Of a stretch of 36,547 nucleotides of DNA, positions 12,630 to 33,680 are shown in pieces. Source of the stretch: an uncultured Eubacteriales bacterium (GTDB lineage Bacteria > Bacillota > Clostridia > Lachnospirales > Lachnospiraceae). Under the pieces are notes generated by a model that was not told where the DNA came from, made no database searches, and was given only the letters and a program-made list of their open reading frames with translations. The position numbers and the translations under genes were made by a program. The stretch covers positions 1-36,547 of the forward strand of contig OMZX01000012.1 in NCBI GenBank assembly GCA_900315665.1. Direction: 5' to 3'. The first letter of the stretch is position 1. The number at the start of each line of letters is the position of its first letter.

Positions 12630-13013
12630 CAGTGGAAAACGAAACTGAACTCTGTGCGCGCAGGGCGTCAGTCCTGTGGCTAGAGACTCCGATGCTAAGA
12701 AAAAGTCACAAAATGACCCCTAAGAAGATGCACGTTTTCGGCGGAACTCGGGGAGTTTTGTTGAAACAAAACACAAAGAAAGAACCTGTTGCAAAACGCG
12801 CAACAGGTTCTTTTGAATACGCTCGCCGCTTAGGCATCCATGAAGCCTCCCGGCGCAAGCGCCGTACTCCATGGATAATCCTCAGACACCCGCCGAAATC
12901 GCTATGGAAGCTCCGGCATCTTCTAAGGGGTCATTTTGGATTTTTCTAAGCATCTCCGTATAGCCACAGGACTGACGCCCTGCGCGCACAGAGTTCAGTT
13001 TCGTTTTCCACTG
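12630..13013. repeat. Long inverted repeat R1 (53-bp perfect arms)
   Basis: Arms 12630-12682 and 12961-13013 are exact reverse complements over 53 bases. Pairing continues inward with small bulges: 12691-12731 against 12916-12955, then TTTCGGCGG near 12736-12744 against CCGCCGAAA near 12890-12898. An apical stem GTTTTGTT/AACAAAAC (12755-12770) follows. The element fills almost the whole 406-base gap between the convergent DUF4364 gene and aminotransferase. No protein coding is credible here. The interior is homologous to R2 at 27477-27753, but the outer arms are not. A separate structured module (12779-12876) is inserted beside the apical stem. No target-site duplication is visible. Confidence 0.9.
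12779..12876 (+). repeat. Structured repeat module M, copy 1 (nested in R1)
   Basis: Hairpin A is AAAGAACCTGTTGC (12779-12792) pairing with 12800-12813 and followed by TTTT-like bases. Next come the conserved linker CGCTCGCCGCT and AGGC. Hairpin B has outer stem ATCCATG (12836-12842)/CATGGAT (12870-12876) and inner stem CGGCGC/GCGCCG around AA. Shared unpaired motifs with the other two copies are CGCTCGCCGCT, AAGCCT and TACTCC; the stems differ by compensating changes. Confidence 0.8.
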
Positions 13014-13028
13014 AGGTTTTGGCTCAAG

Positions 13029-14363
13029 TTACTTCTTCTCGTCCATCTCCTGCTCTACTGCTGCGACGGTTTCGTTTTTCTTCTCGGCGATTAGTTTCTC
13101 GGCGGAAACTAATTTAACCACGAGCGTGAACAGGGTTGCCGCAGTCTTCAGGTCTTCAATCGGGGGATAGGTCGGAGCGATACGGATGTTTGCATCCTGC
13201 GGGTCTTTGTGGTACGGATAGGTTGCACCGGCATCGGTCAGCTTTACGCCGGCCTTTTTGCACTTATCGACGATGGCCTTTGCACAGCCCGGAAGGGCAT
13301 CGAAGCTGATGAAGTAGCCGCCCTTAGGCTTCGTCCATGCACCAATCTCGAGTCCGCTTAAGTTCTCATCAAAGATGCTTTCTACCATTTCAAACTTCGG
13401 GCGGATGATATCTGCGTGCTTCCGCATATGCTCAACCATTCCATGGATATCTTTAAAGAAACGGACATGCCGAAGCTGATTCACCTTGTCGTAGCCGATG
13501 GTCTGGCGTTTCATCTGCTTTTTAATGTCTTCCATATTGTTAAGACTTGTAGCCATCGCAGCGATGCCGGAGCCAGGGAAGGTAATTTTCGAGGTTGATG
13601 CAAATTTATAGACGAGATCCGGATTGCCGGCTCTCTTACATTCTGCGAGTATTTCGATCAGGTGGTCCTGATGATCATCATAGAGATGGTGGATGCCGTA
13701 AGCATTGTCCCAGTAAATACGGAAATCCCTTGCGGCAGGCTTCAGTCTTGCAAAGCGGCGGACGGTCTCATCGGAATAGCTGTAGCCCTGTGGGTTTGAA
13801 TACTTCGGAACACACCAGATTCCTTTGATGGCTTCATCCGCAGCAACAAGCTTCTCAACCATGTCCATATCCGGTCCTTCCGGCGTCATCGGCACATTGA
13901 TCATCTCAATGCCAAAATACTCTGTGATACCGAAATGACGGTCATAACCAGGAACCGGACAGAGCCATTTTACCTTGTCGAGCTTGCACCACGGGGTGTT
14001 GCCCATGACGCCGTGGGTATAAGAACGAGAAATACAGTCATACATCACATTCAGGCTGGAATTACCGAAGATGATGATGTTATCCGGATTGTTTTCCATC
14101 ATATCGGACAGAAGTACCTTCGCTTCATCGATACCGGTCAATACGCCATAATTACGGCAATCCGTACCATCCTCACAGTACATATCAGCGTCTGAATTCA
14201 GGGCATCCATGAGTCCCATACTAAGATCAAGCTGTTCCTTGCATGGCTTGCCACGGCTCATATCGAGTGTCATTTCCAGGGCCTGATAGCGTCTGTATTC
14301 CTTACGTAGGCCCTCCAGCTCATGTTGCAGTTCCTCTACGGACATCGCGGTATATGGTTTCAT
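13029..14363 (-). CDS. PLP-dependent aminotransferase, class I aspartate aminotransferase (subgroup Ic-like)
   Basis: 444 residues. It starts MKPYTAMSVEELQHELEGLRKEYRRYQ, then LDMSRGKPCKEQLDLS, which is the N-terminus of the Asp_aminotransf (Cg2680-like) group and not of AspC. The PLP-binding lysine is in STSKITFPGSG at about residue 259. The Asp that binds the pyridine nitrogen and a Tyr are in YWDNAYGIHHLYDD (about 217-230), and CVPKYSNPQGYSYS is the NPQG segment. It is expected to transaminate aspartate or a related amino acid with 2-oxoglutarate. The C-terminal tail (VSAEKLIAEKKNETVAAVEQEMDEKK) is charged and probably disordered. The ATG follows a strong AGGAGGAG site. A lone gene, convergent with DUF4364 across R1. 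Confidence 0.88.
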   Translation of the reverse strand: MKPYTAMSVEELQHELEGLRKEYRRYQALEMTLDMSRGKPCKEQLDLSMGLMDALNSDADMYCEDGTDCRNYGVLTGIDEAKVLLSDMMENNPDNIIIFGNSSLNVMYDCISRSYTHGVMGNTPWCKLDKVKWLCPVPGYDRHFGITEYFGIEMINVPMTPEGPDMDMVEKLVAADEAIKGIWCVPKYSNPQGYSYSDETVRRFARLKPAARDFRIYWDNAYGIHHLYDDHQDHLIEILAECKRAGNPDLVYKFASTSKITFPGSGIAAMATSLNNMEDIKKQMKRQTIGYDKVNQLRHVRFFKDIHGMVEHMRKHADIIRPKFEMVESIFDENLSGLEIGAWTKPKGGYFISFDALPGCAKAIVDKCKKAGVKLTDAGATYPYHKDPQDANIRIAPTYPPIEDLKTAATLFTLVVKLVSAEKLIAEKKNETVAAVEQEMDEKK

Positions 14364-14465
14364 TTTTCTCCTCCTGTTAAATGCACCACGTAACGAACTT
14401 GATTTTAATCACCACGGCACAGAAATGCAATACAGCCGTCACAATTTGTTAAAAAAAATACGAAG

Positions 14466-15092
14466 TCATGGTTCATTTAGCGCCGTGTTGTTTTTCAGCT
14501 CCTCTATGCGGCTCTTCAGAAAGGTTTCTTCACGGGTAGCAGCTTCATCCCCCGGGTAATTTTGAAGATATTTTTCGACAGCATCGTAAGCAGCCTCCCA
14601 CTGGGCTGTCTTTTCGAGATAGACGACTTCATCGAAGTCGATATCCCGGTCATTTGTGAGCCCTGCGGCTTTCGCGGCATCGAGTTTTTCGCGTGCTGTT
14701 TCCGTGTCATCGTCATTCAGCGCGTCGGACGCTTCCTTTACGAGGCGCTTTGCATCAAGCTGCGTCTGAAACTGAACATATGCCTCTTGATCACCATCAA
14801 CCTTTCGAAGCGTATCGATGGTTGTCTGACAGGCATCGAGGTCACCGGACATATATTCCGCCTCGGCACGATATAAAAGAATATCAAACTGTGTCTCCGA
14901 TACTTCGCCTCGTCCTGCCTGAAGCGCCTGATTCAGGGTATCGATAGCTTCTTCATATTTTCCCTTTTCAAGCTGGTCGATACCACTAAGTCTTAGTTCT
15001 TCCACCTTTTTGTTGCTGCACGCGGTAAGGAAAAGTGAACCAGAAAGAAGCATGTAGACAACAACCGTCTTGATTTTTCCGACTTTATACAT
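14466..15092 (-). CDS. TPR-containing lipoprotein
   Basis: 208 residues. The signal peptide (VVVYMLLSGSLFLTAC) ends in a lipobox, LTAC, with the lipidated Cys at about residue 25. Helical repeats follow: SGIDQLEKGKYEEAIDTLNQALQAG, FDILLYRAEAEYMSGDLDACQTTIDTL, DEVVYLEKTAQWEAAYDAVEKYLQNYPGDE, all in the tetratricopeptide pattern. It is probably anchored on the outer face of the membrane and mediates protein contacts; no specific function can be given. It starts 17 bases after dut and is probably cotranscribed with dut and scpA/scpB. A run of eight Ts lies just beyond the stop (about 14451-14459) without a clear hairpin. Confidence 0.8.
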   Translation of the reverse strand: MYKVGKIKTVVVYMLLSGSLFLTACSNKKVEELRLSGIDQLEKGKYEEAIDTLNQALQAGRGEVSETQFDILLYRAEAEYMSGDLDACQTTIDTLRKVDGDQEAYVQFQTQLDAKRLVKEASDALNDDDTETAREKLDAAKAAGLTNDRDIDFDEVVYLEKTAQWEAAYDAVEKYLQNYPGDEAATREETFLKSRIEELKNNTALNEP

Positions 15093-15109
15093 AGGTCTAA
15101 ACCTTTACC

Positions 15110-15547
15110 TTAATTCTTTCCAGTCGAGCCGAAGCCGCCACGGTCGCTGTTTCCAAGACTTTCCACCTCTTCAAAACAGATATGCGGCTGATGCTCGAAC
15201 AGACGGAACTGGCAGATACGGTCATTCACATGAACCTCTGTGTCCCGTGTCGCATAGACCGGCATGCGGATGATATCATTGTCGCCGCAATAGGATTCGT
15301 CAATGACGCCCAGCGAGTTTGTCTGGAGCAGTCCGAAATTTTTGAAGGTTGAGCTTCTTGGTGCGATGACCATCTCATAGCCCTTCGGAATCTCCACGGA
15401 GATGCCCATACTGATGAGACGGAATTCGCCCTTCTTAAGACTTACATTTTCTGCCACACGAAGATCAATCCAGTCGCTCTTCCCACCGATGTACTGAAGC
15501 TTCTCGATTTCTTCTGTGTGATATTTAATCCGCAATGTCTGTTCCAT
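15110..15547 (-). CDS. dut: dUTP diphosphatase (trimeric dUTPase)
   Basis: 145 residues from the ATG at 15547 (GGAG six bases upstream); an earlier in-frame ATG at 15571 would add eight residues. The five dUTPase motifs are recognisable: WIDLRVAENVSL (motif 1, with D of the LRA-type motif shifted), APRSSTFKNFGL (motif 2), NSLGVIDESYCGDNDII (motif 3), NDRICQFRLFE (motif 4) and RGGFGSTGKN (motif 5, glycine-rich C-terminus). It hydrolyses dUTP to dUMP and pyrophosphate, keeping uracil out of DNA and feeding dTMP synthesis. The start overlaps the end of scpB by 23 bases, so it is translationally coupled to the condensin genes. Confidence 0.93.
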   Translation of the reverse strand: MEQTLRIKYHTEEIEKLQYIGGKSDWIDLRVAENVSLKKGEFRLISMGISVEIPKGYEMVIAPRSSTFKNFGLLQTNSLGVIDESYCGDNDIIRMPVYATRDTEVHVNDRICQFRLFEHQPHICFEEVESLGNSDRGGFGSTGKN

Positions 15548-16226
15548 CGTTTTCTCCATTCTCAGGTTCATCCGAAGTTATTTCTTGATTGTCATTCTTC
15601 TCCGGCCCCATCACATCGAGCACCTCTTCGTCCACCTGCTCCTTGATTTCCTCTGCGACATCTGGATTCAGCGATGGCAGGTCATCAAGGGAACTTACCC
15701 CGAACCGGCGCAGGAAGTCCTCGGTCGTTGCAAAAAGCGCCGGTCGTCCCGGCTGATTCAGACGTCCGACCTCATAGACGAGATTAAACTCAATCAGCTT
15801 ATTGACCGCATGATCCGATTTCACGCCTCGAATCTTCTCAATTTCCGCCTTTGTAACCGGCTGCTTATACGCGATGATGGAGAGCGTCTCCATGACGACA
15901 TCGGTCAGCACCGGCTTGTCGGGATGCTTCGCAACGCGGATCAGCGGTTCGAAATATTCCTTCCGCGTACGCATCTGATACTTGTCTTGTACCTTCACGA
16001 TTTCAAGCCCGGTCTTCATATCCTCATAGCGTTTCAAAAGTCGTTCCACTGCTTGCTGCGAAGCATCCTTCGACAGGTCAAGCGCCCTGGAGATCTCCTC
16101 CATCGAAACACTGCCGCCCATCGTGAACAGCAGTGCCTCTACCGTATTTTCTTCCTTTCGGAGCTCCTCCGCATACTCACGGTCGATCTCCTCCATCAGC
16201 TCCTGCTGTGTTTCCTCAAGTCCCAT
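15525..16226 (-). CDS. scpB: Segregation and condensation protein B
   Basis: 233 residues. The core is typical ScpB: VEALLFTMGGSVSMEEISRAL at about 28-48, then the second winged helix with TDVVMETLSIIAYKQPVTKAEIEKIRGVKSDHAVNKLIEFNLVYEVGRLNQPGRPALFATTEDFLRRFGVSSLDDLP. ScpB dimerises and joins ScpA and SMC in the bacterial condensin. An N-terminal extension of about 25 charged residues and an acidic C-terminal tail (EEVLDVMGPEKNDNQEITSDEPENGEN) are unusual but lie outside the conserved core. It lies 84 bases behind scpA. Confidence 0.96.
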   Translation of the reverse strand: MGLEETQQELMEEIDREYAEELRKEENTVEALLFTMGGSVSMEEISRALDLSKDASQQAVERLLKRYEDMKTGLEIVKVQDKYQMRTRKEYFEPLIRVAKHPDKPVLTDVVMETLSIIAYKQPVTKAEIEKIRGVKSDHAVNKLIEFNLVYEVGRLNQPGRPALFATTEDFLRRFGVSSLDDLPSLNPDVAEEIKEQVDEEVLDVMGPEKNDNQEITSDEPENGENDGTDIAD

Positions 16227-16310
16227 TCTATATTCCCTTTTCCTATTTTATCTGACTCTCATTCACCTTACACATTGTAGCATACACAGTCCAATGCCTA
16301 CAGAAACGTC

Positions 16311-17117
16311 TTAATCGAAGGCTGCAAGTTCCTTAAGCTCCTCCTCGGAAAAGCTTTCACCACTATCCTGCCTGTCCACCTTCGTGATATCCATGTCGCC
16401 AAATGGCTTCTCCTGCACCAGTGTAATACGGCCCATCTTCATGAGCTCCAGCACCGCGAGGAAACTGACCACCACATTCATCTTGTCCTTCTTTTTAATC
16501 ATATGGCGAAAGGTAAAATGCTTATGATGCTCGACATAATCCATCACATCCCGAATCCGGTCGCTCAGTGACAGTTTCTCCCGATGGATCACACCGAACT
16601 TGGAACGAATCTGGTCGATGCTTTCTTCCTTACGCTTCATCACATCCTCGAAGGTAAGGCGCAAGGATTCCAGCGTAACGCCTTTTAAAAGAGCATCGAG
16701 ATCTACAGGCGGTACATACTTCTCAACCTCCTCAGGGATCTGCTTTTCCCGATAAAAATAAGTATCGGCGCCATCCTCTCTTTTCTCGAGCTGTACAGCC
16801 ATATATTTATATTTACGATATTCCAAAAGTCTCTCGACGAGCTCCTGCCGCGGATCGATCTCCTCGCCGCTTTCCTCATCGATTTCCTTCGGTAGAAGCA
16901 TCCTTGATTTAATCTCAAGGAGCGTAGCCGCCATCACCAGAAAATCCGAGATAACATCGAGATCTTCCTCCTCCATCTGATTGACGTATTCCATATACTG
17001 TGCCGTGATTTCCACAATCGGAATATCAAAAATGTCAACCTTATCCTTATCGATGAGATGAAGTAAAAGATCGAGCGGTCCATCAAAATGTTCAAGCTTA
17101 AATTCGAGTTGTTCCAT
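16311..17117 (-). CDS. scpA: Segregation and condensation protein A
   Basis: 268 residues. The N-terminal kleisin signature EFKLEHFDGPLDLLLHLIDKDKVDIFDIPIVEIT is followed by DVISDFLVMAATLLEIKSRMLLP. The C-terminal winged helix contains VVVSFLAVLELMKMGRITLVQEKPFGDM. ScpA bridges the two SMC heads and binds a ScpB dimer in chromosome condensation and segregation. It is first in the scpA-scpB-dut-lipoprotein operon. Confidence 0.97.
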   Translation of the reverse strand: MEQLEFKLEHFDGPLDLLLHLIDKDKVDIFDIPIVEITAQYMEYVNQMEEEDLDVISDFLVMAATLLEIKSRMLLPKEIDEESGEEIDPRQELVERLLEYRKYKYMAVQLEKREDGADTYFYREKQIPEEVEKYVPPVDLDALLKGVTLESLRLTFEDVMKRKEESIDQIRSKFGVIHREKLSLSDRIRDVMDYVEHHKHFTFRHMIKKKDKMNVVVSFLAVLELMKMGRITLVQEKPFGDMDITKVDRQDSGESFSEEELKELAAFD

Positions 17118-17157
17118 TCCCTACCCTGTTAAAGACCCTTTCCATTTTCCTTTTAGT

Positions 17158-17185
17158 ATTCTATAGAGTTTTTGTTTTTTTGCAA
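17158..17185 (-). promoter_or_regulatory. Candidate promoter of the scpA operon
   Basis: On the minus strand TTGCAA (17185-17180) and TAGAAT (17163-17158) are separated by 16 bases. It lies about 40 bases before the scpA ATG. Confidence 0.45.
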
Positions 17186-17412
17186 TCTACTTTTTCCGAC
17201 TTCATGTTCTAACTTCCTGCAGCTTTTCACAACCACTATCCCGCGATCTCAGGTCATAGCTTCAGGAATAAACCATGTCTTTAATTCTTACTTTTTATTT
17301 AAAAAACCATGCATGGTTATTTTCAATCCTTGTCAGAATCTCTTTCATATTTAACAAGAAAAATTTGAAAATTATATTTAAATAAAATATAGTATGAAAA
17401 ATATCTTTCGTA

Positions 17413-17418
17413 TATAAT
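17413..17418 (+). promoter_or_regulatory. Candidate -10 element of the XRE gene
   Basis: A perfect TATAAT in an AT-rich context. No good -35 is visible at 16-18 bases, so it may need an activator. The predicted leader is about 90 bases. Confidence 0.4.
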
Positions 17419-17514
17419 GAACATGTCTTAAACGAATACCATGGATTCTAAAGAGACAGCTGCTTATGCATAGAGCAAAGGTAACTGTAAACCAGCACAC
17501 TATAAGGAGGTCTT

Positions 17515-17805
17515 TTGAAAAGATATCTTTATACTTATGCCCCCTTATGGCAGACTCTGAAGGACGGTGGCGTCAGTCAGTATCAGCTATTACAAGGTGG
17601 GATCACATCTTCACAGCTCAACCGACTTCGTCGGAATGAATCAATCACTCTGAAGACTCTGAAGCGTTTATGCGAGACGTTACAGTGCCGCGTTTCCGAC
17701 ATTATGATCATGCGTCCGGAAGAAGAAATCGTGGAGTTCCTGGAGGAGATCGAAACGGAGGAAACAAAAGAGGAAGAAAAAATGGACACCTTCCATTTAG
17801 AATAA
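17515..17805 (+). CDS. Small XRE/Cro-type HTH regulator
   Basis: 96 residues starting at TTG, five bases after AAGGAGG. The helix-turn-helix covers about residues 9-65: LWQTLKDGGVSQYQLLQGGITSSQLNRLRRNESITLKTLKRLCETLQCRVSDIM. This is the YozG/HTH_26 layout, in which CxVSDIM ends the DNA-binding domain. The C-terminal 30 residues are highly acidic (EEEIVEFLEEIETEETKEEEK). It stands alone, with a strong hairpin behind it. A role as a transcription regulator is likely; its target is unknown, and the palindromes in its own upstream region are candidate autoregulatory sites. Confidence 0.8.
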   Translation: MKRYLYTYAPLWQTLKDGGVSQYQLLQGGITSSQLNRLRRNESITLKTLKRLCETLQCRVSDIMIMRPEEEIVEFLEEIETEETKEEEKMDTFHLE

Positions 17806-17847
17806 CTCGTAACTCCCTGACAAAACTCTGTTCTATTGTACGTGAAA

Positions 17848-17884
17848 TGCCGGAACGAAAGCATCCCCGCCTTTCGTTCCGGCA
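17848..17884 (+). terminator. Strong hairpin terminator after the XRE gene
   Basis: TGCCGGAACGAAAG (17848-17861) pairs perfectly with 17871-17884 (14 bp). The sequence after it is ATATTTG, a weak U tract. It sits between the convergent XRE and ftsH genes and could serve both. Confidence 0.7.
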
Positions 17885-17976
17885 ATATTTGATTGAATAT
17901 TAAAGCCTCATCGCATCAATGTAAATGCAAATCACAAGCTTGAACCTGGTAGGAAGATCCCCCCGCTTTACCTTAC

Positions 17977-20223
17977 CTACTGGTCTTCATCCTGTTCTGC
18001 ACTGGCAGCCTTTTCTTTGTCAGCGCTCTCATGATCGATATCTCCACGCTTCTGTCCATCCGCTGTATAGAGGGCTCTTGCTTCTTCGAAGCTGATCTTT
18101 TCCTTATGCTCCTCGACAGCCTTTGCAACATCCTCCTGCAGCTTTTTCGCCTTTTCCTCCGTCGTTTCAGGTACATCTGTATAAGGCGCGTTTATTACTG
18201 TATCCTGTGCTTTCACCGTTTCTTTTGTCTTCGAATCAGATGATGTTTCCATATCGGAATCAGTCTGCTCCTCAATGCGCACTCCATCCGCCGTATACTT
18301 TTCCGGATGAAGCTTCATGTCTTCTTCCTTCTGCACATCATGAAGAATATGCATGAATTCCTTTCCGGTAATGGTCTCGCGTTCGATCAGAAACTCTGCG
18401 ATCCGGTCCAGTGCAAAACGGTTCTTTCGGAGAATCTCCTTCGCTTCCTCGTAGCTCTCCTTCAGAATCTTCATGACCTCTTCATCGACAGCGGTCGCTG
18501 TGTCGTCGCCACAGTTCATGACCGTCTTTCCAGAAAGATACATCGATTCCTGCGTTGCAAGTCCCATAAGACCGAACTTATCGGACATACCATACTGCGT
18601 AACCATCGCGCGAGCCAGCTTCGTCGCCTTTTCGATATCATTTGCCGCACCAGTTGTAACCGTATCAAAGACGATTTCCTCCGCGGCACGACCTGCAAGA
18701 TAGGTGACCAGCATCGCATGCAGCTCATCCTTCGTGTTCAGATACTTTTCTTCCTCCGGAACCTGCATCACATAACCGAGCGCACCCATCGTACGAGGAA
18801 TGATGGTGATCTTCTGCACCGGCTCGGCATCCTTCTGGATGGCGGAAACGAGTGCATGACCAACTTCATGATAGGAAACGATTCTTCTCTCCTGCTGGGA
18901 AAGAATACGATCCTTCTTCTCTTTACCGACAAGTACGACCTCAACCGCCTCAAAAAGATCCGACTGTGATACGGCCTTTCGTCCATGCTTGACTGCTGTG
19001 ATGGCTGCCTCATTCATCATATTGGCAAGATCTGCACCGACGGCGCCGGAGGTTGCCAGAGCAATTTCATTGAAATCGACACTATCATCAAGCTTTACAT
19101 CCCGTGCATGTACCTTCAGGATGTTAACACGGCCTTTAAGGTCAGGCTTTTCGACGACGATACGGCGGTCGAAACGACCCGGACGAAGCAGTGCCGGATC
19201 CAGAATCTCCGGACGGTTCGTCGCACCCATGACCATGATGCCCTTCGAGGCATCGAAGCCATCCATCTCAGAAAGGAGCTGGTTCAACGTCTGCTCACGT
19301 TCATCATTGCCACCGCCATAATGACTCTCTCTTGATTTACCGATTGCATCGATTTCATCGATAAAGATAATGCACGGCGCTGTCTGGCTTGCCTGCTTAA
19401 AAAGATCACGGACACGGCTTGCACCGACGCCGACAAACATCTCGACGAAATCAGAACCGGACAGAGAATAAAACGGCACCTGTGCTTCACCGGCGACAGC
19501 CTTTGCAAGAAGCGTTTTACCGGTTCCCGGAGGTCCTACAAGAAGTGCACCCTTTGGCAGCTTCGCACCAACCTGCGTATACTTCGATGGATTATGCAGG
19601 AAGTCGACGATCTCAATCAGAGACTCCTTCGCTTCATCCTCACCGGCCACATCCTTGAAGGTGACACCGGTTTCCTTCTGCATGTACATCTTTGCCGTGG
19701 ACTTGCCGACGCCCATGATATTGGAACCGCTGCCGCCCATCCGGCGCATGGTCATGCTCATGAGGACAAAGAGAAGCGCAAACGGGATGACCACGCTGAA
19801 GATGGTCTCCATGATGAAGCCGGAATTGTCAGGCTTTTTCTTGTAGATTTCTACATTGTGACGAAGCAGCCGGTCGACGAGATTTTCTGCGTCCGCATTG
19901 ACCGGAACCACATAGTATTTAAGCTCAACCTGATTGAGATAGCCGCCGTAGCTCTCGGTGCTGTCCTCTGCCGGCACGAAGCCTGCCACCGGATAAACCG
20001 TGATTTCATTGGTTCCCCACTCTACCTTCTGCACCTGTCCGTTATCTACCATCGTGATAAAGGCAGAGTAGCTGATTTCCTGAGAAACCTCCGAGACGAA
20101 AAAGCCCCGGATCATCGTATAAACGAAAAAGGTAATGACGGCAGCGATGATCAGAATCATAAAGGTTGGTCCTGAATTGCGGAATCGCCTGTTGTCATTA
20201 CCCTGATAATTGTTGTTGTCCAT
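17977..20223 (-). CDS. ftsH: ATP-dependent zinc metalloprotease FtsH
   Basis: 748 residues. Two membrane helices (about 20-40 and 137-158) flank an extracytoplasmic domain. The AAA+ domain has Walker A GPPGTGKT (230-237), Walker B FIDEID (about 287-292) and the second region of homology [20 protein letters not shown]. The zinc protease motif is HEVGH (452-456), with the third ligand in [13 protein letters not shown]. FtsH degrades misfolded membrane proteins and regulators. A C-terminal tail of about 130 charged, low-complexity residues (after [10 protein letters not shown]) is much longer than in many homologues. GGAG lies seven bases before the ATG. It has its own promoter and a palindrome at the predicted transcript 5' end. 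Confidence 0.98.
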
Positions 20224-24233: not shown

Positions 24234-26228
24234 ATGGAAAAACATCCTTTTGTTTTACATTCTGACTACGCGCCGACCGGTGACCAGCCTAAGGCGATTG
24301 AGAAGCTCGTTGCCGGCTTCAAGGAAGGCAATCAGTTCGAAACCCTGCTCGGCGTGACCGGCTCCGGTAAGACCTTTACGATGGCCAATGTCATCCAGGC
24401 GTTGCAGAAGCCAACGCTCATCATATCCCACAACAAAACACTGGCGGCCCAGCTCTATTCCGAAATGAAGGACTTTTTCCCTGAAAACCGGGTAGAATAT
24501 TTTGTTTCCTATTACGATTATTATCAGCCGGAGGCCTATGTCCCGTCGACCGATACCTACATTGAAAAAGATTCTGATATCAACGATGAAATCGATAAGC
24601 TTCGGAACTCCGCGATGGCCTCTCTGTCCGAGCGAAGCGATACGATTGTCGTCTCCTCCGTTTCCTGCATCTATGGACTCGGTGCGCCGACAGAGTATCT
24701 GAACATGGCGATTTCTCTCCGTCCTGGCCAGATAAAAGATCGGGACGAGTTCATTCGACAGCTCATCGACATCCAGTACAATCGGAACGATATGGACTTT
24801 AAGCGCGGCACCTTCCGTGTCATGGGTGATGTTGTCGACGTTTTCCCGGCCAGTGAAGGCGAAGAAGCCTACCGCATCGAGTTCTTCGGAGATGAAATTG
24901 ACACAATCAAACGGATCGATGCCCTGACGGCGAAGACCAATGCTTCCATGCAGCACATCATGATCTATCCTGCAAGCCCCTACGTCATCCCGCAGGATAA
25001 GCTGAACCTCGCCTGTGTCAATATCCTGAAGGAAATGGATGAGCGGGTTCAGTATTTTAAGGACAATGACAAGCTTCTCGAAGCGCAGCGGATTGCCGAG
25101 CGGACCAATTATGATGTTGAGATGCTGAAAGAAACCGGCTTTTGCTCAGGTATCGAAAATTATACGAGACATTTAAATTTTGCGAAACCGGGCGAACCGC
25201 CCTATACCCTCATGGATTATTTTCCGGACGACTACCTCATCATCGTCGATGAGTCGCACGTCACACTCCCGCAGGTACGCGGCATGTACAATGGAAACCT
25301 TTCCCGTAAGACAACCCTGGTGGATTATGGCTTCCGTCTGCCATCCGCACTGGACAACAGGCCGCTTAATTTCGAGGAATTTGAACAGAAGATTGATCAG
25401 ATGATGTTCGTATCGGCGACACCCGGTGATTATGAAGCGGATCATGAACTTCTGCGAGCGGAGCAAATCATCCGTCCGACCGGTCTCCTCGATCCGGAAA
25501 TCGAGGTCCGTCCGACGAAGGGACAGATTGATGATCTCATCGCGCAGATTCATAAAGAAACCGCCGCAAAACACAAGGTTCTCGTGACGACGCTCACGAA
25601 GCGGATGGCGGAGGACCTCACAAAATATCTCAAGGAAGCGGATATCCGTGTCAAGTATCTGCATTCCGATATCGATACCCTGGAGCGGGCACAGATCATC
25701 CGCGATATGCGGCTTGACAAATTTGACGTACTTGTAGGCATTAACCTGCTCCGTGAGGGACTCGATATCCCTGAGGTTGCACTCGTCGCGATTCTCGATG
25801 CCGATAAGGAAGGCTTCCTTCGTTCAGAAACCTCGCTCATCCAGACGGTCGGCCGTGCTGCGCGTAATGCTGACGGGCACGTCATCATGTATGCTGACAC
25901 GATCACAGAATCCATGCGTCACACGATTGATGAGACCAATCGCCGCCGCAAGGTACAGATGGCTTATAATGAGGAGCACCACATCACGCCGACGACGATT
26001 CATAAGGCGGTACAGGATGTTATCGCGATCACACGTGCTGCAGACGCTGATGATCTCGGCGGGATCAAAAAGGATGTGGAATCTATGTCGCATCAGGAGG
26101 TGGACAAGCTCATCCGCGAACTCACGAAAAAGATGCGCGCCGCTGCCACCGAGCTCAACTTCGAGGACGCCGCCAAATACCGTGACAAGATTGAAGAAAT
26201 CCGGAAAACCATTTCGAAAGAAGAATAG
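24234..26228 (+). CDS. uvrB: UvrABC system protein B
   Basis: 664 residues. It begins with [21 protein letters not shown] and has Walker A GVTGSGKT (40-47), the beta-hairpin [21 protein letters not shown] used to probe damage, the DESH helicase box (about 338-341), and helicase motifs V/VI with [14 protein letters not shown] and QTVGRAARN. The C-terminal UVR motif [19 protein letters not shown] binds UvrC. It is the damage-verification helicase of nucleotide excision repair. GGAG lies six bases before the ATG. No uvrA follows in the window; a structured repeat starts directly after the stop. Confidence 0.98.
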
Positions 26229-26229
26229 G

Positions 26230-26360
26230 AAGGCATCGCAAGCGATGCCTTTGAACGCGCTCGCCGCTAAGGCATCCCGAAGCCTTCTCCGCTCCGCTCC
26301 GGTCGGCGCAAATCAGATGTCCACTGGACATCTTGCGCCCGCTTCGCGGTACTCCGGGAT
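26230..26360 (+). repeat. Structured repeat module M, copy 2 (3' end of uvrB)
   Basis: Hairpin A is AAGGCATCGC (26230-26239) pairing with GCGATGCCTT (26242-26251), starting two bases after the uvrB stop. The linker CGCTCGCCGCTAAGGC follows, then hairpin B with outer stem ATCCCG/CGGGAT. The inner arm of hairpin B is expanded here: GGCGCAA/TTGCGCC encloses AGATGTCC/GGACATCT. The shared motifs AAGCCT and TACTCC are kept. Hairpin A followed by TT could end uvrB transcription. Confidence 0.8.
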
Positions 26361-26362: not shown

Positions 26363-26392
26363 CAACAAAAACCTCCGGAGCCACTCCGGAGG
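26363..26392 (-). terminator. Rho-independent terminator of tRNA-Arg
   Basis: On the minus strand CCTCCGGAG (26392-26384) pairs with CTCCGGAGG (26380-26372) around a 3-base loop and is followed by TTTTTGTTGTT. It lies 10 bases beyond the tRNA 3' end. Confidence 0.92.
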
Positions 26393-26401
26393 TCTTCGAT
26401 A

Positions 26402-27462: not shown

Positions 27463-27476
27463 GTGGCTTCGCGGAC

Positions 27477-27753
27477 GGGAGGGACGACGGTCCCGATCCG
27501 TGCATGCGAGTGGCCATCGCAGATTTCAAAGACTACAGCGCTAACAAAATTCACAAAATGCCCCCTAAGAAGTTGCACGTTTCCGGCGGAACTCGGAGAG
27601 TTTTCTTGAAAGAAAACTCTCCTCAGACACCCGCCGGAATCGCTATGGAAGCTCCGGCAACTTCTAAGGGGGCATTTTGGAATTTTCTAAGCGCTTCCGT
27701 ATGAAATCTGTGATGGCCACTCGCATGCACGGATCGGGACTGTCGTCCCTCCC
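27477..27753. repeat. Long inverted repeat R2 (52-bp arms with two wobbles)
   Basis: Arms 27477-27528 and 27702-27753 are complementary over 52 bases with only two non-Watson-Crick positions, both G-T. The interior continues as a stem, with 27541-27576 against 27657-27695. Next is TTTCCGGCGG near 27580-27589 against CCGCCGGAA near 27631-27639. The apical perfect stem is GAGAGTTTTCTT/AAGAAAACTCTC (27597-27622). The element fills the 307-base gap between the rpiR-like pseudogene and convergent luxS. Its interior is homologous to R1 but its outer arms are not. It lacks the nested module that R1 carries. Confidence 0.9.
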
Positions 27754-27769
27754 TGACCTTTGAAAGAAT

Positions 27770-28249
27770 TCAGGCTGGATAATTCATGTGTGCGTCGTCG
27801 ATTGCGTAAAGGGTGTTTTCCAGGTAGCGGTTAGCGAGGTAGTGGGCCATGCCGAGATTTTGATCCAGGTAGTTTCCGCAGTCGTGGGCGGTGGCACCTG
27901 GGATTTCGCCTTCGTAATCGCGGATGAATTCGTACATTTTTGTGATGACAGGAACAATATCACGAGACGCAAGGTCACCGGCGAAGATGGCGTAAAAACC
28001 GGTGCGGCAGCCCATCGGGCCGAAGTAGATGGTCTTATCTTTCCACGCCGGATCGTTTCTTAGGAAGGTGGCGCCGAGATGCTCGATGGTATGAACCTCC
28101 GCCGTATTCATGACGGGTTCCTTGTTCGGAGTTGTCATGCGAAGGTCAAAGGTCGTGATGGTCTCCTCTCCGACCTTATCCTTTCTTGATACGTAGATAC
28201 CCGGCTCGAGCTTCAGATGGTTTACGGTAAAGCTTGCTATTTTTTCCAT
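27770..28249 (-). CDS. luxS: S-ribosylhomocysteine lyase LuxS
   Basis: 159 residues. The metal site is HTIEH (His53 and His57) plus Cys124 in ATAHDCGNY, and the catalytic Cys81 is in GPMGCRTGFY. It cleaves S-ribosylhomocysteine to homocysteine and DPD, the precursor of autoinducer-2, in the activated methyl cycle. The ATG follows GAAGGAG. A strong hairpin lies directly upstream, between this gene and the preceding secreted-protein gene. Its 3' side faces the R2 palindrome. Confidence 0.98.
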   Translation of the reverse strand: MEKIASFTVNHLKLEPGIYVSRKDKVGEETITTFDLRMTTPNKEPVMNTAEVHTIEHLGATFLRNDPAWKDKTIYFGPMGCRTGFYAIFAGDLASRDIVPVITKMYEFIRDYEGEIPGATAHDCGNYLDQNLGMAHYLANRYLENTLYAIDDAHMNYPA

Positions 28250-28265
28250 AATGTCTCCTTCAGAA

Positions 28266-28293
28266 AAGGCTGTCGCAGTATCGCGACAGCCTT
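28266..28293 (-). terminator. Hairpin between the small secreted protein gene and luxS
   Basis: AAGGCTGTCGC (28266-28276) pairs perfectly with GCGACAGCCTT (28283-28293); on the minus strand it is followed by TTTTC. It ends about 16 bases before the luxS ATG, close to its ribosome binding site. It can terminate the upstream gene or form a leader hairpin for luxS. Confidence 0.65.
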
Positions 28294-28370
28294 CATTGTA
28301 TCATATTCAATTCTAATTTTCAGCCTATAGCAGAAATCTCTTCTTCAGGCAACTGCTTCCGAGATGGAAT

Positions 28371-28898
28371 TTATTGCTCCAGATTTTCGGAAAGCTCCTC
28401 GAGCACTGCATCAGTTACCATACCAAAATAGAAATCCTGGTAATTTTTCTTTGAAGCATCCGTAAAGACACGAACATCGTAGCAACGGTTTACAAAATCA
28501 TAAGCCTTACCGCTCTCCGTATCCTGCTCGAAAAGATTCTCCGGAAGAAGATTCAGAGACTCTCCGATCTTCACGGTCTTCTTCAGAACACGATTCCTTA
28601 CGCCGACGTCCTGACCATTCAGATATTCATTGACATAAACGATGACATCTGCGGTTGTAACAGAACCATCTTCACTCGTGAGACGGAAGGATGCGTTATC
28701 ACTGACGATAAAGGCAGGCTTCGTCTGCTTCGTCACGGGATCATTGACCTTGCCCGGAAGGTACATGTCATCGACGGCAAGTGAAACCTTCGCCTGACTC
28801 TTTACGATGGAACTCGATGCAAAGGATGAAAACGCTGCCGTCAGGCTAAGGGCACATCCGATGACAATCGCTTTTATAGTTGAATGCTTATGCAGCAT
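28371..28898 (-). CDS. Small secreted protein of unknown function
   Basis: 175 residues. A clear signal peptide occupies about residues 1-28 (MLHKHSTIKAIVIGCALSLTAAFSSFASS), with cleavage likely after AxA-type FASS. The mature part is beta-rich (VKSQAKVSLAVDDMYLPGK ... AFIVSDNASFRLTSEDGSVTTADVIVYVNEYLNGQDVG), with one Cys. I do not recognise the family. It has its own promoter and GAGGTG seven bases before the ATG. No lipobox or cell-wall anchor is seen, so it is probably released or associated with the surface. Confidence 0.75.
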   Translation of the reverse strand: MLHKHSTIKAIVIGCALSLTAAFSSFASSSIVKSQAKVSLAVDDMYLPGKVNDPVTKQTKPAFIVSDNASFRLTSEDGSVTTADVIVYVNEYLNGQDVGVRNRVLKKTVKIGESLNLLPENLFEQDTESGKAYDFVNRCYDVRVFTDASKKNYQDFYFGMVTDAVLEELSENLEQ

Positions 28899-28932
28899 AT
28901 CGTTACACCTCAGTTACCTAAGAATTAGTCTT

Positions 28933-28962
28933 ATTATAGTTGAAAGCGCACACCGTTGGCAA
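28933..28962 (-). promoter_or_regulatory. Promoter of the small secreted protein gene
   Basis: On the minus strand TTGCCA (28962-28957) and a perfect TATAAT (28938-28933) are separated by 18 bases. The remaining AT-rich interval up to 29139 shows no gene. Confidence 0.6.
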
Positions 28963-29139
28963 GTTTTCGGCCTTTACTGTAAGTTTTTCGTAAAAAAGCA
29001 ATAAAATCTCACCGCACTTTATCATTAAATCTTGCACAATATTTTGTGATTTTAATATCTAAAGTATCTATATGTTCGATTTGCATTTTCTATTGTACGA
29101 ATCAGGCCTCATTTTTTTGTCAGATGGCAGAGTTGGCAT

Positions 29140-30774
29140 TTAATAGTGGAAGTTCGGGATTACCTGATCCCAGGACGAGATGCCGATGATCGGCAGAGCA
29201 AATGCGGTCGACGCCATCGACAGGTTCGGATCATCGATATTCCGGAAGACATCCTTGATCGGACGCTCTATGAGGTGATTTGTATTTGCCGGATCGACGG
29301 ACTGAAGACCATAGGCAAGACCAGTCTTCGTCTCCTCTGTGTGATCAAGCTGTCGGCTTAAAAGGAAGCCCTTGATATCCGGGTTGCAGTTCACCATATA
29401 ATACGCATAGGCAAAGGCTGCTGCCTGATCGAGTGTCGCATCCTGCCCGCGCGAGTTCGAATTAAAGCCCTGCTCCGTGAGATAAATGTCGCGAACCGTG
29501 CCTGCACGGGTCAGAAGATCGGCGCGATGCATATAATTCGTGATGACACTGATGTTTGCCATACTGACAACCGGCGAGGCATCTGTGTTGTTCACCTTAC
29601 CGGTCTCATAATCATCCCAGAAAATCGGGTTCCAGATCGGATATGGATATGGATGAAGCGCTAAGCCCCAGTCCGTCTTACCCTCCATCTGGTCCAGTAT
29701 GCTAAATGCTTCCAGCACCGACTTCCCCGTATATTTCCCGACGACGCCGGTTTCCGGCAGCATATTCCAGTAGAGATCCAGTGAGAACATCACAGAATCT
29801 CCTGCGCTCACGGACTTGATGGCTGTGTAGAAGGTACGGAACGCGCGCTGGTAAATCAGTGTATATTGGCCGACATCATAGTTTCCGATATAGTTCCAGT
29901 ACTGGTTGTTGATCTCGTTACCGATGACCCAGTTTGTGATCTTACCATGGCCATTATAGCCGCTGTAACGATTCGCAAGGAAGGAAGCAATCGCCTTCAC
30001 AAGATTGAAGCCGCGCTCGGTCATGACATTGAAGCCATAATACAGTGCCTGATCGCTGGTCTGTACCGAAGTACCGGGAATATAGAGATCCGGTTGTGCC
30101 CCATTGAAGCCATTGAGAAGAATCGCAGTTACTGCTACGCCCGCGTTTGAGAGACGTGAAATCTGATTATCCAGTTCGGAAACATTCTTCGCACTGAAGC
30201 TATAGTTCTGCCCCTCGAAGGAGTATGTGATACCCGAGCCAAGAAGCTGTGCTGTCGTGATGGAGATGCTGGCCTGCTTTAGGTTTAGCTTCAGCGCATC
30301 ATCAATCAGATTCGGGTCAATCATGAGGCCTTTCTTTCCATAAATGGCAGGTGCACTCTGATCTGGTGCTATCACCTCCGGATTTGTGATGTAGCAGCGG
30401 TTTGATATCAGTTGATAGCTGCCGGAACCCCCGTCGACAGCCAGAGCGAAAGCATCATAAAGCCTGTTCGACGCCGGGCCATCCTGCATATCGAAGGTGA
30501 AGGTCATGCTGGATGAAGCCTGCTGTGCTGAGAGATAATCCGCTCTGCCGGAAACATCCGACTGATATGGCTTCATCGAAAAAAGATAAACTGCCGGCGG
30601 ATTCGACGGATCAAAATCAGATACGGTTGCCGTGACATTAATCTTTGATGGATCATTCGGATCGATCTTGGCTGATGTCACATTTGCCGTCGTTGCAAAA
30701 GAAGCAAACGACGTGCCCGCTGTAAGCATTAGAAAAGTGATTATGGTAAAAATAAGCTTCGAAAGTCTAGTCAT
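29140..30774 (-). CDS. Secreted DUF5722-like protein with a glycoside hydrolase (clan GH-A type) fold
   Basis: 544 residues from the ATG at 30774, which follows GAGGAGG by seven bases. A signal peptide (about 1-27, KLIFTIITFLMLTAGTSFASFA) is followed by a beta-sandwich-like domain (about 30-135). Next comes a TIM-barrel-like domain with the two clan A glutamates: WVIGNEINNQ (Glu about 286, acid/base position after Asn) and IYLTEQGFNS (Glu about 434, nucleophile position). LALHPYPYPIWNP and GFLLSRQLDHTEE are further barrel strands. I place it in the DUF5722 family from memory. It is probably an exported glycosidase or glycan-binding enzyme; the substrate is not predictable. It stands alone, with its own extended -10 promoter. 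Confidence 0.8.
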   Translation of the reverse strand: MTRLSKLIFTIITFLMLTAGTSFASFATTANVTSAKIDPNDPSKINVTATVSDFDPSNPPAVYLFSMKPYQSDVSGRADYLSAQQASSSMTFTFDMQDGPASNRLYDAFALAVDGGSGSYQLISNRCYITNPEVIAPDQSAPAIYGKKGLMIDPNLIDDALKLNLKQASISITTAQLLGSGITYSFEGQNYSFSAKNVSELDNQISRLSNAGVAVTAILLNGFNGAQPDLYIPGTSVQTSDQALYYGFNVMTERGFNLVKAIASFLANRYSGYNGHGKITNWVIGNEINNQYWNYIGNYDVGQYTLIYQRAFRTFYTAIKSVSAGDSVMFSLDLYWNMLPETGVVGKYTGKSVLEAFSILDQMEGKTDWGLALHPYPYPIWNPIFWDDYETGKVNNTDASPVVSMANISVITNYMHRADLLTRAGTVRDIYLTEQGFNSNSRGQDATLDQAAAFAYAYYMVNCNPDIKGFLLSRQLDHTEETKTGLAYGLQSVDPANTNHLIERPIKDVFRNIDDPNLSMASTAFALPIIGISSWDQVIPNFHY

Positions 30775-30801
30775 AAAATTTCCTCCTCTACCATGCGTCA
30801 T

Positions 30802-30810
30802 AGTATAGCA
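30802..30810 (-). promoter_or_regulatory. Extended -10 promoter of the DUF5722-like gene
   Basis: On the minus strand TGC precedes TATACT (TATACT at 30807-30802, TG at 30810-30809), an extended -10. No good -35 is visible at the usual distance. Confidence 0.5.
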
Positions 30811-30866
30811 CGGATAACGACGTCACTCCTTAAAGTTTTCCTTACAATAAAAGAACTTTGACAAAT

Positions 30867-30907
30867 AAAAAATACGGATGGAATGCGAAACCAGGACATC
30901 CATCCGT
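30867..30907 (-). terminator. Rho-independent terminator of tyrS
   Basis: On the minus strand ACGGATGGA (30907-30899) pairs with TCCATCCGT (30882-30874) and is followed by ATTTTTT. It lies 36 bases beyond the tyrS stop. Confidence 0.88.
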
Positions 30908-30942
30908 AATTCATCATCGAAACGAACTAATAATCAGTTTTT

Positions 30943-32160
30943 TCAGGAGAAAATTTTCATAAAGCTCTTCTTGCCGCGCTGTACGACCTTGCCATCCTTG
31001 AAGAAGGCTGCGTCGTAGGAGGCGCGCGGATCGGTTACCTTCTCGCCGTCAAGGAGAACGCCGCCCTGCTGTACGTTCTGCCGGGCATCGGAACGGGACT
31101 TCGCGAGACCGGATACGGCGAGAACACCGCAGATATCGATCTTACCATCACGGTAGTCTTCATCCTTCAGCTTGTACTCCGGCATGTTCTCAGAGCCACC
31201 GCCCATGAAGATGGACTTTGCGGCCTTATCAGCCTTGTCAGCCTCTTCCTTGCCATGTACCATCTCCGTGAGATCATAAGCGAGACGCTCTTTTGCCTTG
31301 TTAAGCTCAGCGCCTTCCCACTTGGCCATCTCGTTGATTTCTTCCATCGGAATGAACGTAAGGAGCTTCAGACATTTGATGACATCGGCATCCTGGACAT
31401 TTCTCCAGTACTGATAGAAGTCATACGGAGAGGTCTTGTCCGGATCAAGCCATACGGCACCGCCGACGGTCTTACCCATCTTCTTACCCTCAGAGTTTGT
31501 GAGCAGTGTGATGGTCAGCGCATAGGCATCCTTACCAAGCTTCTTACGGATGAGCTCTGTGCCAGCCAGCATATTTGACCACTGATCATCGCCGCCGAAC
31601 TCCATATTGCAGCCGTAATCCTGGTAGAGTCTGTAGAAATCATAGCCCTGCATCAGCATATAGCTGAACTCAAGGAAGGTAAGCCCCGCCTCCATACGAT
31701 TCACATAGCAGCGGGCACGAAGCATATCATTGACAGAGAAGCACGGACCGATTTCCCGCATGAAGTCAAGGAAATTAAGGTTCCGGAGCCAGTCTGCGTT
31801 GTTTACCATGCGCGCCTTGCCCTCGCCGAACTCGATAAACCGGCTCATCTGCTTCTTGAAGCACTCGCAGTTATGATCGATCTGCTCGATCGTCATCATC
31901 TTCCGCATATCCGTACGACCGGACGGATCGCCGATCATACCGGTGCCGCCGCCAACCAGTGCGATCGGCTTGTTGCCAGCCATCTGCAGCCGCTTCATAA
32001 GAACAAGCGCCATGAAATGACCGACATGCAGCGAATCCGCCGTCGGATCGAAGCCGATATAGAAGGTTGCCTTACCGTTGTTAACAAGCTCGCGGATTTC
32101 CTTCTCATCCGTCACCTGCGCGATCAGACCGCGCTCCACCAGTTCCTCATAAACTCCCAT
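30943..32160 (-). CDS. tyrS: Tyrosine--tRNA ligase
   Basis: 405 residues. The class I HIGH motif appears as HVGH in DPTADSLHVGHFMAL (about residues 39-53) and KMSKS appears as KMGKT in SEGKKMGKTVGG. The Tyr-binding part includes YMLMQGYDFYRLYQDYGCNMEFGGDDQWSN. The C-terminal S4-like RNA-binding domain begins near ICGVLAVSGLAKSRSDARQNVQQGGVLLDGEKV. It charges tRNA-Tyr. AAGGAG lies six bases before the ATG. Many Firmicutes tyrS genes have a T-box leader; I looked between 32161 and 32306 and found no TGGNACCGCG-type motif. Confidence 0.98.
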   Translation of the reverse strand: MGVYEELVERGLIAQVTDEKEIRELVNNGKATFYIGFDPTADSLHVGHFMALVLMKRLQMAGNKPIALVGGGTGMIGDPSGRTDMRKMMTIEQIDHNCECFKKQMSRFIEFGEGKARMVNNADWLRNLNFLDFMREIGPCFSVNDMLRARCYVNRMEAGLTFLEFSYMLMQGYDFYRLYQDYGCNMEFGGDDQWSNMLAGTELIRKKLGKDAYALTITLLTNSEGKKMGKTVGGAVWLDPDKTSPYDFYQYWRNVQDADVIKCLKLLTFIPMEEINEMAKWEGAELNKAKERLAYDLTEMVHGKEEADKADKAAKSIFMGGGSENMPEYKLKDEDYRDGKIDICGVLAVSGLAKSRSDARQNVQQGGVLLDGEKVTDPRASYDAAFFKDGKVVQRGKKSFMKIFS

Positions 32161-32306
32161 CGATTTCTCCTTGCTTTATTTTATAATGCATACATCAGGC
32201 ATGCGTTGCCTAATGCTGCGATATAACCTGTTCCTAGTATCTTCTATACTCTACTACTTCCCGCTCATTCATATGACTTCCATCCAGTCAACAGGTGGAA
32301 GCATTA

Positions 32307-33350
32307 TTAAAACTTCGTCTGTTGCACGTACTCGTAGACATTATCGATCAGGCGGACGGTGTCCTCCCACCCGATGCAGGCATCGGTGATGGACTTGCCG
32401 AAAACATGCTCTTCGACCTTGCAGTTTCCCTCGAGCAGATATGACTCAACCATCAGGCCCTTCACAAACGTCGCAAGCTCCTCAGAATATTTCCGGGAGT
32501 GCATAACCTCCTGCGCGATCCGGAGCTGCTCCTTATAATGCTTCCCTGAGTTGCAGTGATTGGTGTCGACGACAACCGCCGGGTTTACGAGATCCTTCTC
32601 CGAATACAATGTATGAAGGAGCTTCAGATCCTCGTAATGATAATTCGGCATCATCTGTCCGTGCTTTGACTGTGAGCCACGAAGGATCGCATGCGCATAC
32701 GGATTTCCGTCCGAGCGTACCTCCCATTCACGGAAGATGAAATCATGCGGATGCTGTGCTGCATAGATTGAGTTCAACATGACACCCATATCTCCTGAAG
32801 TCGGATTTTTCATACCGATCGGCACATCCGTACCAGAGGCGACGAGTCTATGCTGCTGGTTCTCGACGGAACGCGCGCCAACTGCGATATAGCTCATAAT
32901 ATCAGAGAGATATCGAAGATTGTCCGGGTATAGCATCTCATCGGCGGTGCTGAGGCCGGTCTCTCGAAGAACCTCCATATGAAGTTTACGAATGGCGGCA
33001 ATACCGCTCGCCACATTCGCACCCTTCTCCGGGTCCGGCTGATGCAGCATGCCCTTATAGCCTTCGCCGGTCGTACGTGGCTTATTCGTATAGACACGCG
33101 GTACGATCATGATACTGTCTTCGACCTGCTTCGCAATCTCCTTCAGACGATTGCAATATTCAAGTACAGGATCCTGATGATCGGCTGAGCATGGTCCGAT
33201 GATAAGAAGAAAGCGCTTTGACTTTCCGCTGAAAATGTCCTTGATTTCCTGGTCCCGCTTCGCCTTGATCGTAGCGAGCTCAGTCGGAAGCGGCAGCTGC
33301 TCACGAATCTCCGCCGAGGATGGCAGCTTCGCTCTGAATTCCAAACCCAT
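32307..33350 (-). CDS. aroF: 3-deoxy-7-phosphoheptulonate (DAHP) synthase, class I (AroF/G/H type)
   Basis: 347 residues, the type I-alpha length. It has the PEP- and E4P-binding segments LLIIGPCSADHQDPVLEY, IVPRVYTNKPRTT-GEGYKG, VGARSVENQQHRLVASG, GMKNPTSGDMGVMLNSI and VVVDTNHCNSGKHYKEQ, plus EGNCKV near the end. It condenses phosphoenolpyruvate and erythrose 4-phosphate in the first step of aromatic amino acid synthesis. The N-terminal extension (EFRAKLPSSAEIREQLPLPTELATIKAKRDQEIKDIFSGK) is that of feedback-regulated enzymes; which amino acid inhibits cannot be told. AroF/G/H cannot be separated by sequence here. GGAGAG precedes the ATG. tyrS lies downstream on the same strand. Confidence 0.95.
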   Translation of the reverse strand: MGLEFRAKLPSSAEIREQLPLPTELATIKAKRDQEIKDIFSGKSKRFLLIIGPCSADHQDPVLEYCNRLKEIAKQVEDSIMIVPRVYTNKPRTTGEGYKGMLHQPDPEKGANVASGIAAIRKLHMEVLRETGLSTADEMLYPDNLRYLSDIMSYIAVGARSVENQQHRLVASGTDVPIGMKNPTSGDMGVMLNSIYAAQHPHDFIFREWEVRSDGNPYAHAILRGSQSKHGQMMPNYHYEDLKLLHTLYSEKDLVNPAVVVDTNHCNSGKHYKEQLRIAQEVMHSRKYSEELATFVKGLMVESYLLEGNCKVEEHVFGKSITDACIGWEDTVRLIDNVYEYVQQTKF

Positions 33351-33444
33351 AATTATCTCTCCTCATTCTACGTGAAGCCCCATCGAAGCCTGCCGAAGCC
33401 CTTTCCGGCGTCGTATTCTGTTCGTAAAGCCCACATAATGTTGA

Positions 33445-33473
33445 AGTATAGGCGAAAACCTACCATAAATCAA
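33445..33473 (-). promoter_or_regulatory. Promoter of the DAHP synthase gene
   Basis: On the minus strand TTGATT (33473-33468) and TATACT (33450-33445) are separated by 17 bases. It lies just outside the left arm of R3. Confidence 0.6.
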
Positions 33474-33598
33474 GGGGAGCGTAGCTATGCGAACGCAGAA
33501 CCGGCCGAATGCAGAAGGCGCATCCACGCTCGCTGCTCGAAAGTCCTAGCGCTATCCGGGTGTTTCAGTCGGGCCGGCCCAATTCAGGAAAAATCAGT

Positions 33599-33680
33599 AG
33601 ACATCGCAAGCGATGTCTTTGAACGCGCTCGCCGCTAAGGCATCCCGAAGCCTCCCCGCGCAAGCGCGGTACTCCGGGAT
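33599..33680 (+). repeat. Structured repeat module M, copy 3 (nested in R3)
   Basis: Hairpin A is AGACATCGC (33599-33607)/GCGATGTCT (33610-33618) followed by TT. The linker CGCTCGCCGCTAAGGC is next. Hairpin B has outer stem ATCCCG/CGGGAT and inner stem CCGCGC/GCGCGG around AA. It is nearly identical to copy 2 in the conserved parts and shorter in hairpin B. Confidence 0.82.

Follow-up and report, generated by a model that had tools for sequence, protein, structure and literature searches.

A dispersed two-hairpin repeat and a larger palindromic element with matching arms in a Lachnospiraceae genome

Module M and the large hairpins of the window

The DNA stretch analysed here, contig OMZX01000012.1 (36,547 nt, referred to as the window), comes from an uncultured Lachnospiraceae bacterium and is contig C104 of the host genome (G000; 2.45 Mb, 121 contigs). 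The gene at 24234-26228, which we take to be uvrB, encodes a product with 90% sequence identity to the homolog of Oribacterium sp. KHPX15, and the host is therefore assigned to Oribacterium or a close relative. The window carries three copies of a repeat of about 88 nt, termed module M, in which a hairpin (A) is followed by a conserved linker and a hairpin (B) with an outer and an inner stem. The first and third copies are enclosed in far larger hairpins (384 nt and 354 nt) that were not seen in the original prediction, a reading of the sequence letters which had located the three M copies. The hairpin around copy 3 belongs to another dispersed family, termed P. Judged from the sequences, M is probably a short non-autonomous mobile repeat made of a DNA hairpin pair, and P a mobile non-coding element whose arms are kept alike by copying. 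The features, all on the + strand, are as follows.

12630-13013, +: giant hairpin around M copy 1; perfect 53-bp arms 12630-12682/12961-13013, further arms 12709-12731/12916-12938 and 12733-12744/12890-12901
12779-12876, +: M copy 1; hairpin A 12779-12792/12800-12813, outer stem 12836-12842/12870-12876, inner stem 12851-12856/12859-12864
12820-12835, +: linker of M copy 1, CGCTCGCCGCTTAGGC
26230-26360, +: M copy 2; hairpin A 26232-26239/26242-26249, outer stem 26274-26279/26355-26360, enlarged inner arm
33483-33494, +: left P boundary, AGCTATGCGAAC (family form GGCTATGCGGAC)
33495-33848, +: P element with M copy 3 (locus L120); perfect 32-bp outer arms 33495-33526/33817-33848
33538-33545/33794-33801, +: P stem S1
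33558-33571/33770-33783, +: P stem S2
33576-33595/33714-33733, +: P apical hairpin H1, interrupted by M
33599-33680, +: M copy 3; hairpin A 33600-33607/33610-33617, linker 33626-33641, outer stem 33642-33647/33675-33680
33734-33766, +: P apical hairpin H2
33849-33858, +: right P boundary, T-rich, TGTCTTTTGC (family form TGTTTTTGGC)

Alignment of the three M copies confirmed their positions, their common blocks and the stem changes described in the original prediction. Hairpin A is GGCATCGC/GCGATGCC in copy 2, GACATCGC/GCGATGTC in copy 3 and an unrelated 14-bp stem in copy 1. The outer stem of hairpin B is ATCCCG/CGGGAT in copies 2 and 3 and ATCCATG/CATGGAT in copy 1; the inner stems also differ as described, with a larger inner arm in copy 2. 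M copy 2 abuts the uvrB stop codon and is followed downstream by a hairpin (26373-26397) and a tRNA-Arg. The covariance-model match of copy 1 spans 12782-12880, and the right end of copy 3 is partly duplicated directly after it (33686-33703). No named family had been recognized in the repeat, and in a search of Rfam (release 15) at gathering scores the window likewise gave only the tRNA.

When the copies are folded in single-stranded DNA form, the first two score better than all of 200 shuffled sequences (z -5.9 and -4.0); the fold of copy 3 by itself is weak (z -2.05; 4 of 200 shuffles equally good). In the minimum-energy fold of copies 1 and 3 the linker is paired with the inner arm and the outer stem is not formed; the complement that this alternative pairing needs is lacking in the M copies inspected in a second genome, G012. 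A pseudoknot between AGGC and GCCT had also been proposed. GCCT is lost in five copies (L020, L021, L022, L170, and L179) with no matching change in AGGC, and in L015 the GCCT half is taken up into a longer outer stem. The pseudoknot was rejected because covariation gave it no support. The giant hairpins fold far better than the M copies within them, with z -24.1 at 12630-13013 and z -16.3 at 33495-33848 (0 of 100 shuffles as good in each case). The core of the hairpin around copy 1 is unlike P.

Dispersal and structure of M

M is repeated well beyond the window. A 20-nt linker pattern (at most two mismatches) has 19 matches in the 2.45-Mb host genome and none for the reversed control. A first covariance model, built from six copies and scoring up to 150 candidates per genome, gave 21 matches in the host genome, so the further copies on which the original prediction hung were found. 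Among the 17 genus genomes searched with this model, G012 has seven matches, G010 has four weak ones (E 0.0055-0.0075), and the remaining 14 have none. A second model (25 matches as input, stricter filters, 12 candidates per genome) found M in two of 348 family genomes, G000 (E 7e-7) and G195 (E 5e-4). By eye, the G010 and G195 matches have mainly hairpin A and the TTTGAAC..CGCTC stretch in common with M, and from this likeness they may represent a sister element. L168, L174, L171, and L177 in G010 and L335 and L336 in G195 read hairpin A, TTTGAAC, CGCTC and then an unlike 3' half. One copy of this sister repeat lies between what we take to be ribosomal protein genes. The M model gave no match in 41 named Lachnospiraceae loci, 28 of them uvrB loci, and exact patterns for M and P gave none in viral contigs.

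The structure script returned 27 rows, one of them a chance match on the minus strand of the window; the figures below rest on the other 26. Hairpin A has at least 6 bp in 22 of the 26 copies and falls short of this in four. In 18 of 26 (recounted by hand) the expected place holds an outer stem of 6 bp or more, which occurs in five forms: ATCCCG, ATCCATG, ATCACGGGG, ATCCCTGAAGCC.., and AACCCGAAATTTC. In L010, ATCCGT is paired with ACGGAT (by eye); other copies have no outer stem or a misplaced match only. The linker thus stays constant while hairpin A and the outer stem vary and mostly still pair. In a model-fitted alignment (A6), seven of the nine hairpin A pairs differ in both partners, with 95.5% of cells paired. 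Over the whole structure this alignment has 55 cells changed on both sides; shuffles gave 17.2 such cells and slid controls no more than 12. Its helices 2-5 are paired in 22.7-76.1% of cells, because the alignment is mis-registered at the outer and inner stems, and therefore only hairpin A is read from it. The compensatory stem changes are real, as originally described, and they hold in the second species (G012).

All 19 M copies examined for their neighboring genes lie between open reading frames (ORFs), in the arrangements -M- (7), +M+ (6), +M- (3), and -M+ (3). At L012 (C41:18439-18615 of the host genome) a tandem M pair is located just upstream of a ribosome-binding site and start codon. 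Six of the 21 host copies sit inside P cores. The left junction, in the H1 loop, is common to four loci (L120, L118, L016, and L200), and the right junction is common to L120, L116, L122, and L200. No target-site duplication is visible by eye at these M-in-P junctions. Entry at the H1 loop with no visible duplication suits single-strand insertion.

The P family and the divergence of its arms

A P tip pattern (at most three mismatches) has 45 matches in the host genome and two in the reversed control. We analyzed 43 of the 45 loci; C44:5876 shows no P core and C62:50722 was examined separately. Locus L128 is cut by a contig end, and the arm figures rest on the other 42, in which the arms are 25-112 bp long and each is 84-100% identical to the complement of its partner, mostly near-perfect. 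The core between them is conserved, typically about 155 nt long, with deletions in several copies and M in six. Stems S1 and S2 and the apical hairpins H1 and H2 form a branched core on a long stem. An RNAalifold consensus of 17 cores has 58 pairs, 23 of them changed on both sides. The boundary motif outside the arms (GGCTATGCGGAC before, TGTTTTTGGC after) is well kept in some copies only. The two arms of one copy resemble each other far more than the arms of other copies; across the host loci the arms have only short words in common, mostly GGAGGGGCACCC at the inner end.

P is intergenic at 42 loci, with flanking genes arranged -P- (16), +P+ (13), +P- (7), -P+ (4), or one-sided (2), and P often starts within about 25 nt of the end of a neighboring ORF. 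Of 41 loci, 17 have a TTTT run after the right arm and none has one after the left arm. Rfam scans of four P loci by E-value returned only sub-threshold, chance-level matches (microRNA-type and others) to the palindromes. Short terminator-like hairpins with the outer boundary motif and no P core occur at L220, L223, L229, and L231. At L213/L221 (C31:24537-24577 of the host genome) the boundary motif TGGCTGTGCGGAC and near-forms stand in tandem beside a short hairpin.

In a family-wide search (10 candidates scored per genome), the P covariance model found the element in five of 299 Lachnospiraceae genomes (298 genera). The follow-up with 150 candidates gave 47 matches in G268, 13 in G101, 8 in G130, and 1 in G062. 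These homologs belong to four other genera and have the same layout as in the host. The eight loci that were read begin and end with an arm; the core between the arms contains H1, with a loop similar to CCTGAAGGG, and one further apical hairpin. The G101 assembly is one 3.8-Mb contig, which argues against P being an assembly artefact of the host genome. An exact-type P pattern is absent from 16 other genus genomes, among which G001 was also searched with the model. The model found nothing in any of 80 named Lachnospiraceae loci around uvrB, and a distant-mode search of plasmids and phages with one P element gave no match. In G268, four loci (L299-L302, on C112, C75, C115, and C170) hold P pairs in opposite orientation, about 520-880 bp apart; at L293 and L300 there is no long ORF of obvious function between the paired copies.

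The arms of different P copies in G268 can be aligned and are homologous along their length. From the 47 matches 32 loci were offered and 30 used (L309 and L323 dropped beforehand), giving 13 nearest-neighbor pairs with no copy in two pairs. Of 1255 stem pairs compared, 1092 are unchanged. Among the 163 that changed, 124 differ on both sides with pairing retained, 32 differ on one side only, and 7 are of other kinds. The both-sided changes comprise 64 transitions and 60 transversions and the one-sided changes 26 and 6 (Fisher p 0.0025). By our reading of the alignments, eight indels (1-7 nt, in three copy pairs) have a counterpart of equal size at the corresponding place of the other arm. When only copies that diverge by less than 10% are considered, where the copy pairs are not independent, 127 of 188 changed pairs are both-sided.

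In the host genome, mismatched or gapped arm columns are most frequent in the outer third, away from the tip (55/594; middle 25/585, inner 24/571), a distribution reached in none of 2000 permutations. The 31 arms used in this test each have 40 columns or more, and eight loci had been dropped beforehand. Wobble-type mismatches divide 48 to 53 between the strands in the host; in G268 they divide 12 to 22 when five fixed mismatch positions are left out and 12 to 45 when these are included. It was concluded that the wobble mismatches show no significant strand bias, i.e., no single transcribed strand is indicated. Only two pairs of host copies have cores at least 95% identical, and their outer arms are not alike; two pairs are too few to judge wholesale arm replacement.

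Origin of the matched arms and relation to known elements

The two arms of a P copy have likely been copied from each other repeatedly, with correction strongest near the tip. One arm would serve as the template for the other, by template switching at an extruded hairpin or by snap-back synthesis during movement of the element. M, with its linker between hairpins A and B, would act as a DNA hairpin pair and would enter hairpin loops as single-stranded DNA with no target duplication; a single-strand transposase encoded by the host or by an insertion sequence (IS) could move both M and P. Copying of this kind is described in two papers: template switching keeps hairpin stems perfect in quasipalindromes and RNA stems (PMC8794818), and concerted palindromes in coding sequence are kept perfect as one arm is copied from the other (PMC6649704). 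P resembles these cases in its both-sided changes and distal mismatches. Comparison of related copies shows changes of several bases on both sides, indels among them, in G268 and less strongly in G101 and G130. The cases described in those papers concern single or mitochondrial genes, whereas P is bacterial, lies dispersed in dozens of copies and has arms of 25-112 bp.

Several results weigh against this account. In G268 the left arms carry 18 indels and the right arms 12, and only eight are matched. In G101 (11 of 13 copies, five pairs), 78 changed stem pairs comprise 33 both-sided, 40 one-sided, and 5 other, and the transition/transversion contrast is not significant (p 0.09); in G130 (eight copies, three pairs) the 16 changed pairs are 7, 7, and 2. 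The arms of different host loci do have their short inner words in common. The share of transversions is higher in both-sided than in one-sided changes, and copying alone predicts equal shares if the copied changes begin as one-sided mutations; selection against badly paired bases would explain the rarity of one-sided transversions and could contribute. For this reason arm copying is held as likely only. The giant hairpin around copy 1 had no relative among the host loci compared (no whole-genome search was made). Neither M nor P could be linked to a transposase, no M (E<=1) lies in the 3-kb loci around the RAYT-like genes (L161 and L163), and G010 has M-like repeats and no match to a Y1 transposase.

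Stem changes on both sides are the usual evidence for functional RNA. It is rather unlikely that M, and P with it, acts as a structured RNA such as a 3' untranslated region or processing element whose pairing is restored by selection on the RNA. The M linker is conserved in two species while the stems change, the pairing of hairpin A is well kept through its changes, several M copies, like copy 2, follow a stop codon and precede a terminator-like hairpin, and the TTTT runs follow only the right P arm. M and P nevertheless occur in all four gene orientations, the wobble mismatches are not significantly biased to either strand, the P arms have many both-sided transversions and matched indels, and apart from the tRNA neither the window at gathering scores nor the four scanned P loci gave an Rfam match above chance. 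Since arm-to-arm copying is probable, the matched arm changes of P are not by themselves proof of a functional RNA. The original prediction had offered two readings, a structured RNA family and a palindromic mobile repeat under selection for its fold. The mobile repeat is borne out by the dispersal, the occurrence in all orientations, the tandem pair and the nesting in P; selection for the fold is not shown, because copying explains the joint arm changes of the neighboring P family at least equally well and because the strand bias of wobble mismatches is not significant.

A mobile P core might instead have inserted into the loops of existing long terminator hairpins at gene ends, the arms being host sequence. 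We consider this rather unlikely as well. It would account for host arms that differ between loci around a conserved core, for the frequent start of P close to an ORF end, and for the coreless hairpins with the same outer motif. The homology of the G268 arms along their length speaks against it and indicates that in G268 the arms travel with the core; the boundary conserved outside the arms does as well. P might also be a new class of mobile element with a self-primed fold-back DNA intermediate, the hairpin tip priming a fresh second arm in each cycle, a proposal that we regard as unlikely. New copies would then start as perfect palindromes whose arms drift and still match each other, and M would ride in the P loops.

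The REP/REPIN sequences are dispersed, intergenic, non-autonomous palindromes tied to single-strand chemistry (PMC3116915, PMC8266576), and M is likewise dispersed, intergenic and palindromic. That M is a REP/REPIN proper, moved by a RAYT (TnpA-REP) transposase, is quite improbable all the same. M copies are short intergenic palindromes, and RAYT-like genes (long divergent Y1 proteins) are present in G000 and G012, both M-bearing. REPs have a conserved tetranucleotide, mostly GTAG, before the palindrome; it is found at the foot of copy 3 and not at most of the M copies inspected. In M a conserved single-stranded linker joins two hairpins that differ from each other, and its 21 copies are far below the hundreds in E. 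coli. The two RAYT-like loci carry no M (repeats near RAYT are strong only in some systems), G010 has its M-like repeats with no Y1 match, and G004, G013, and G016 encode long Y1 proteins and gave no M match. P is ten times larger than REP.

Bacterial MITEs are small, non-coding, multi-copy elements with inverted ends, a description that M and P partly share. M lacks terminal inverted repeats, no target duplication was seen at its insertions in P, and the P arms of the host are not common to the loci, unlike MITE ends. In G268 the arms are common to the copies, and there P comes close to a MITE. M and P are thus REP/MITE-like, yet they lack tested marks of either family. Mitochondrial double-hairpin elements and repetitive hairpin-forming elements are similar to M as coding-free mobile repeats with two hairpins, the likeness being one of layout. 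The stems of mitochondrial double-hairpin elements are variable.

The surprise of the analysis is P, with its arms that match within copies and its branched conserved core. No description of M or P was met in the literature searched; one may exist in supplements or in large candidate-RNA surveys of human microbiomes. Both-sided changes are abundant in P, often as transversions or indels, and plausibly reflect DNA copying. P therefore lends itself naturally to separating arm copying from selection on RNA. It also calls for care when RNAs in repeats are discovered by covariation, and it offers a lead on how hairpin elements may spread in a manner not recognised before.

In a single case (L160, C26 of the host genome), a P element at about 675-856 lies directly beside an IS200-type Y1 tnpA (C26:166-522). 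The RAYT-like genes of L161 (G012, C67) and L163 (G000, C11) seem to lie beside the same neighbor gene, presumably comM-like.

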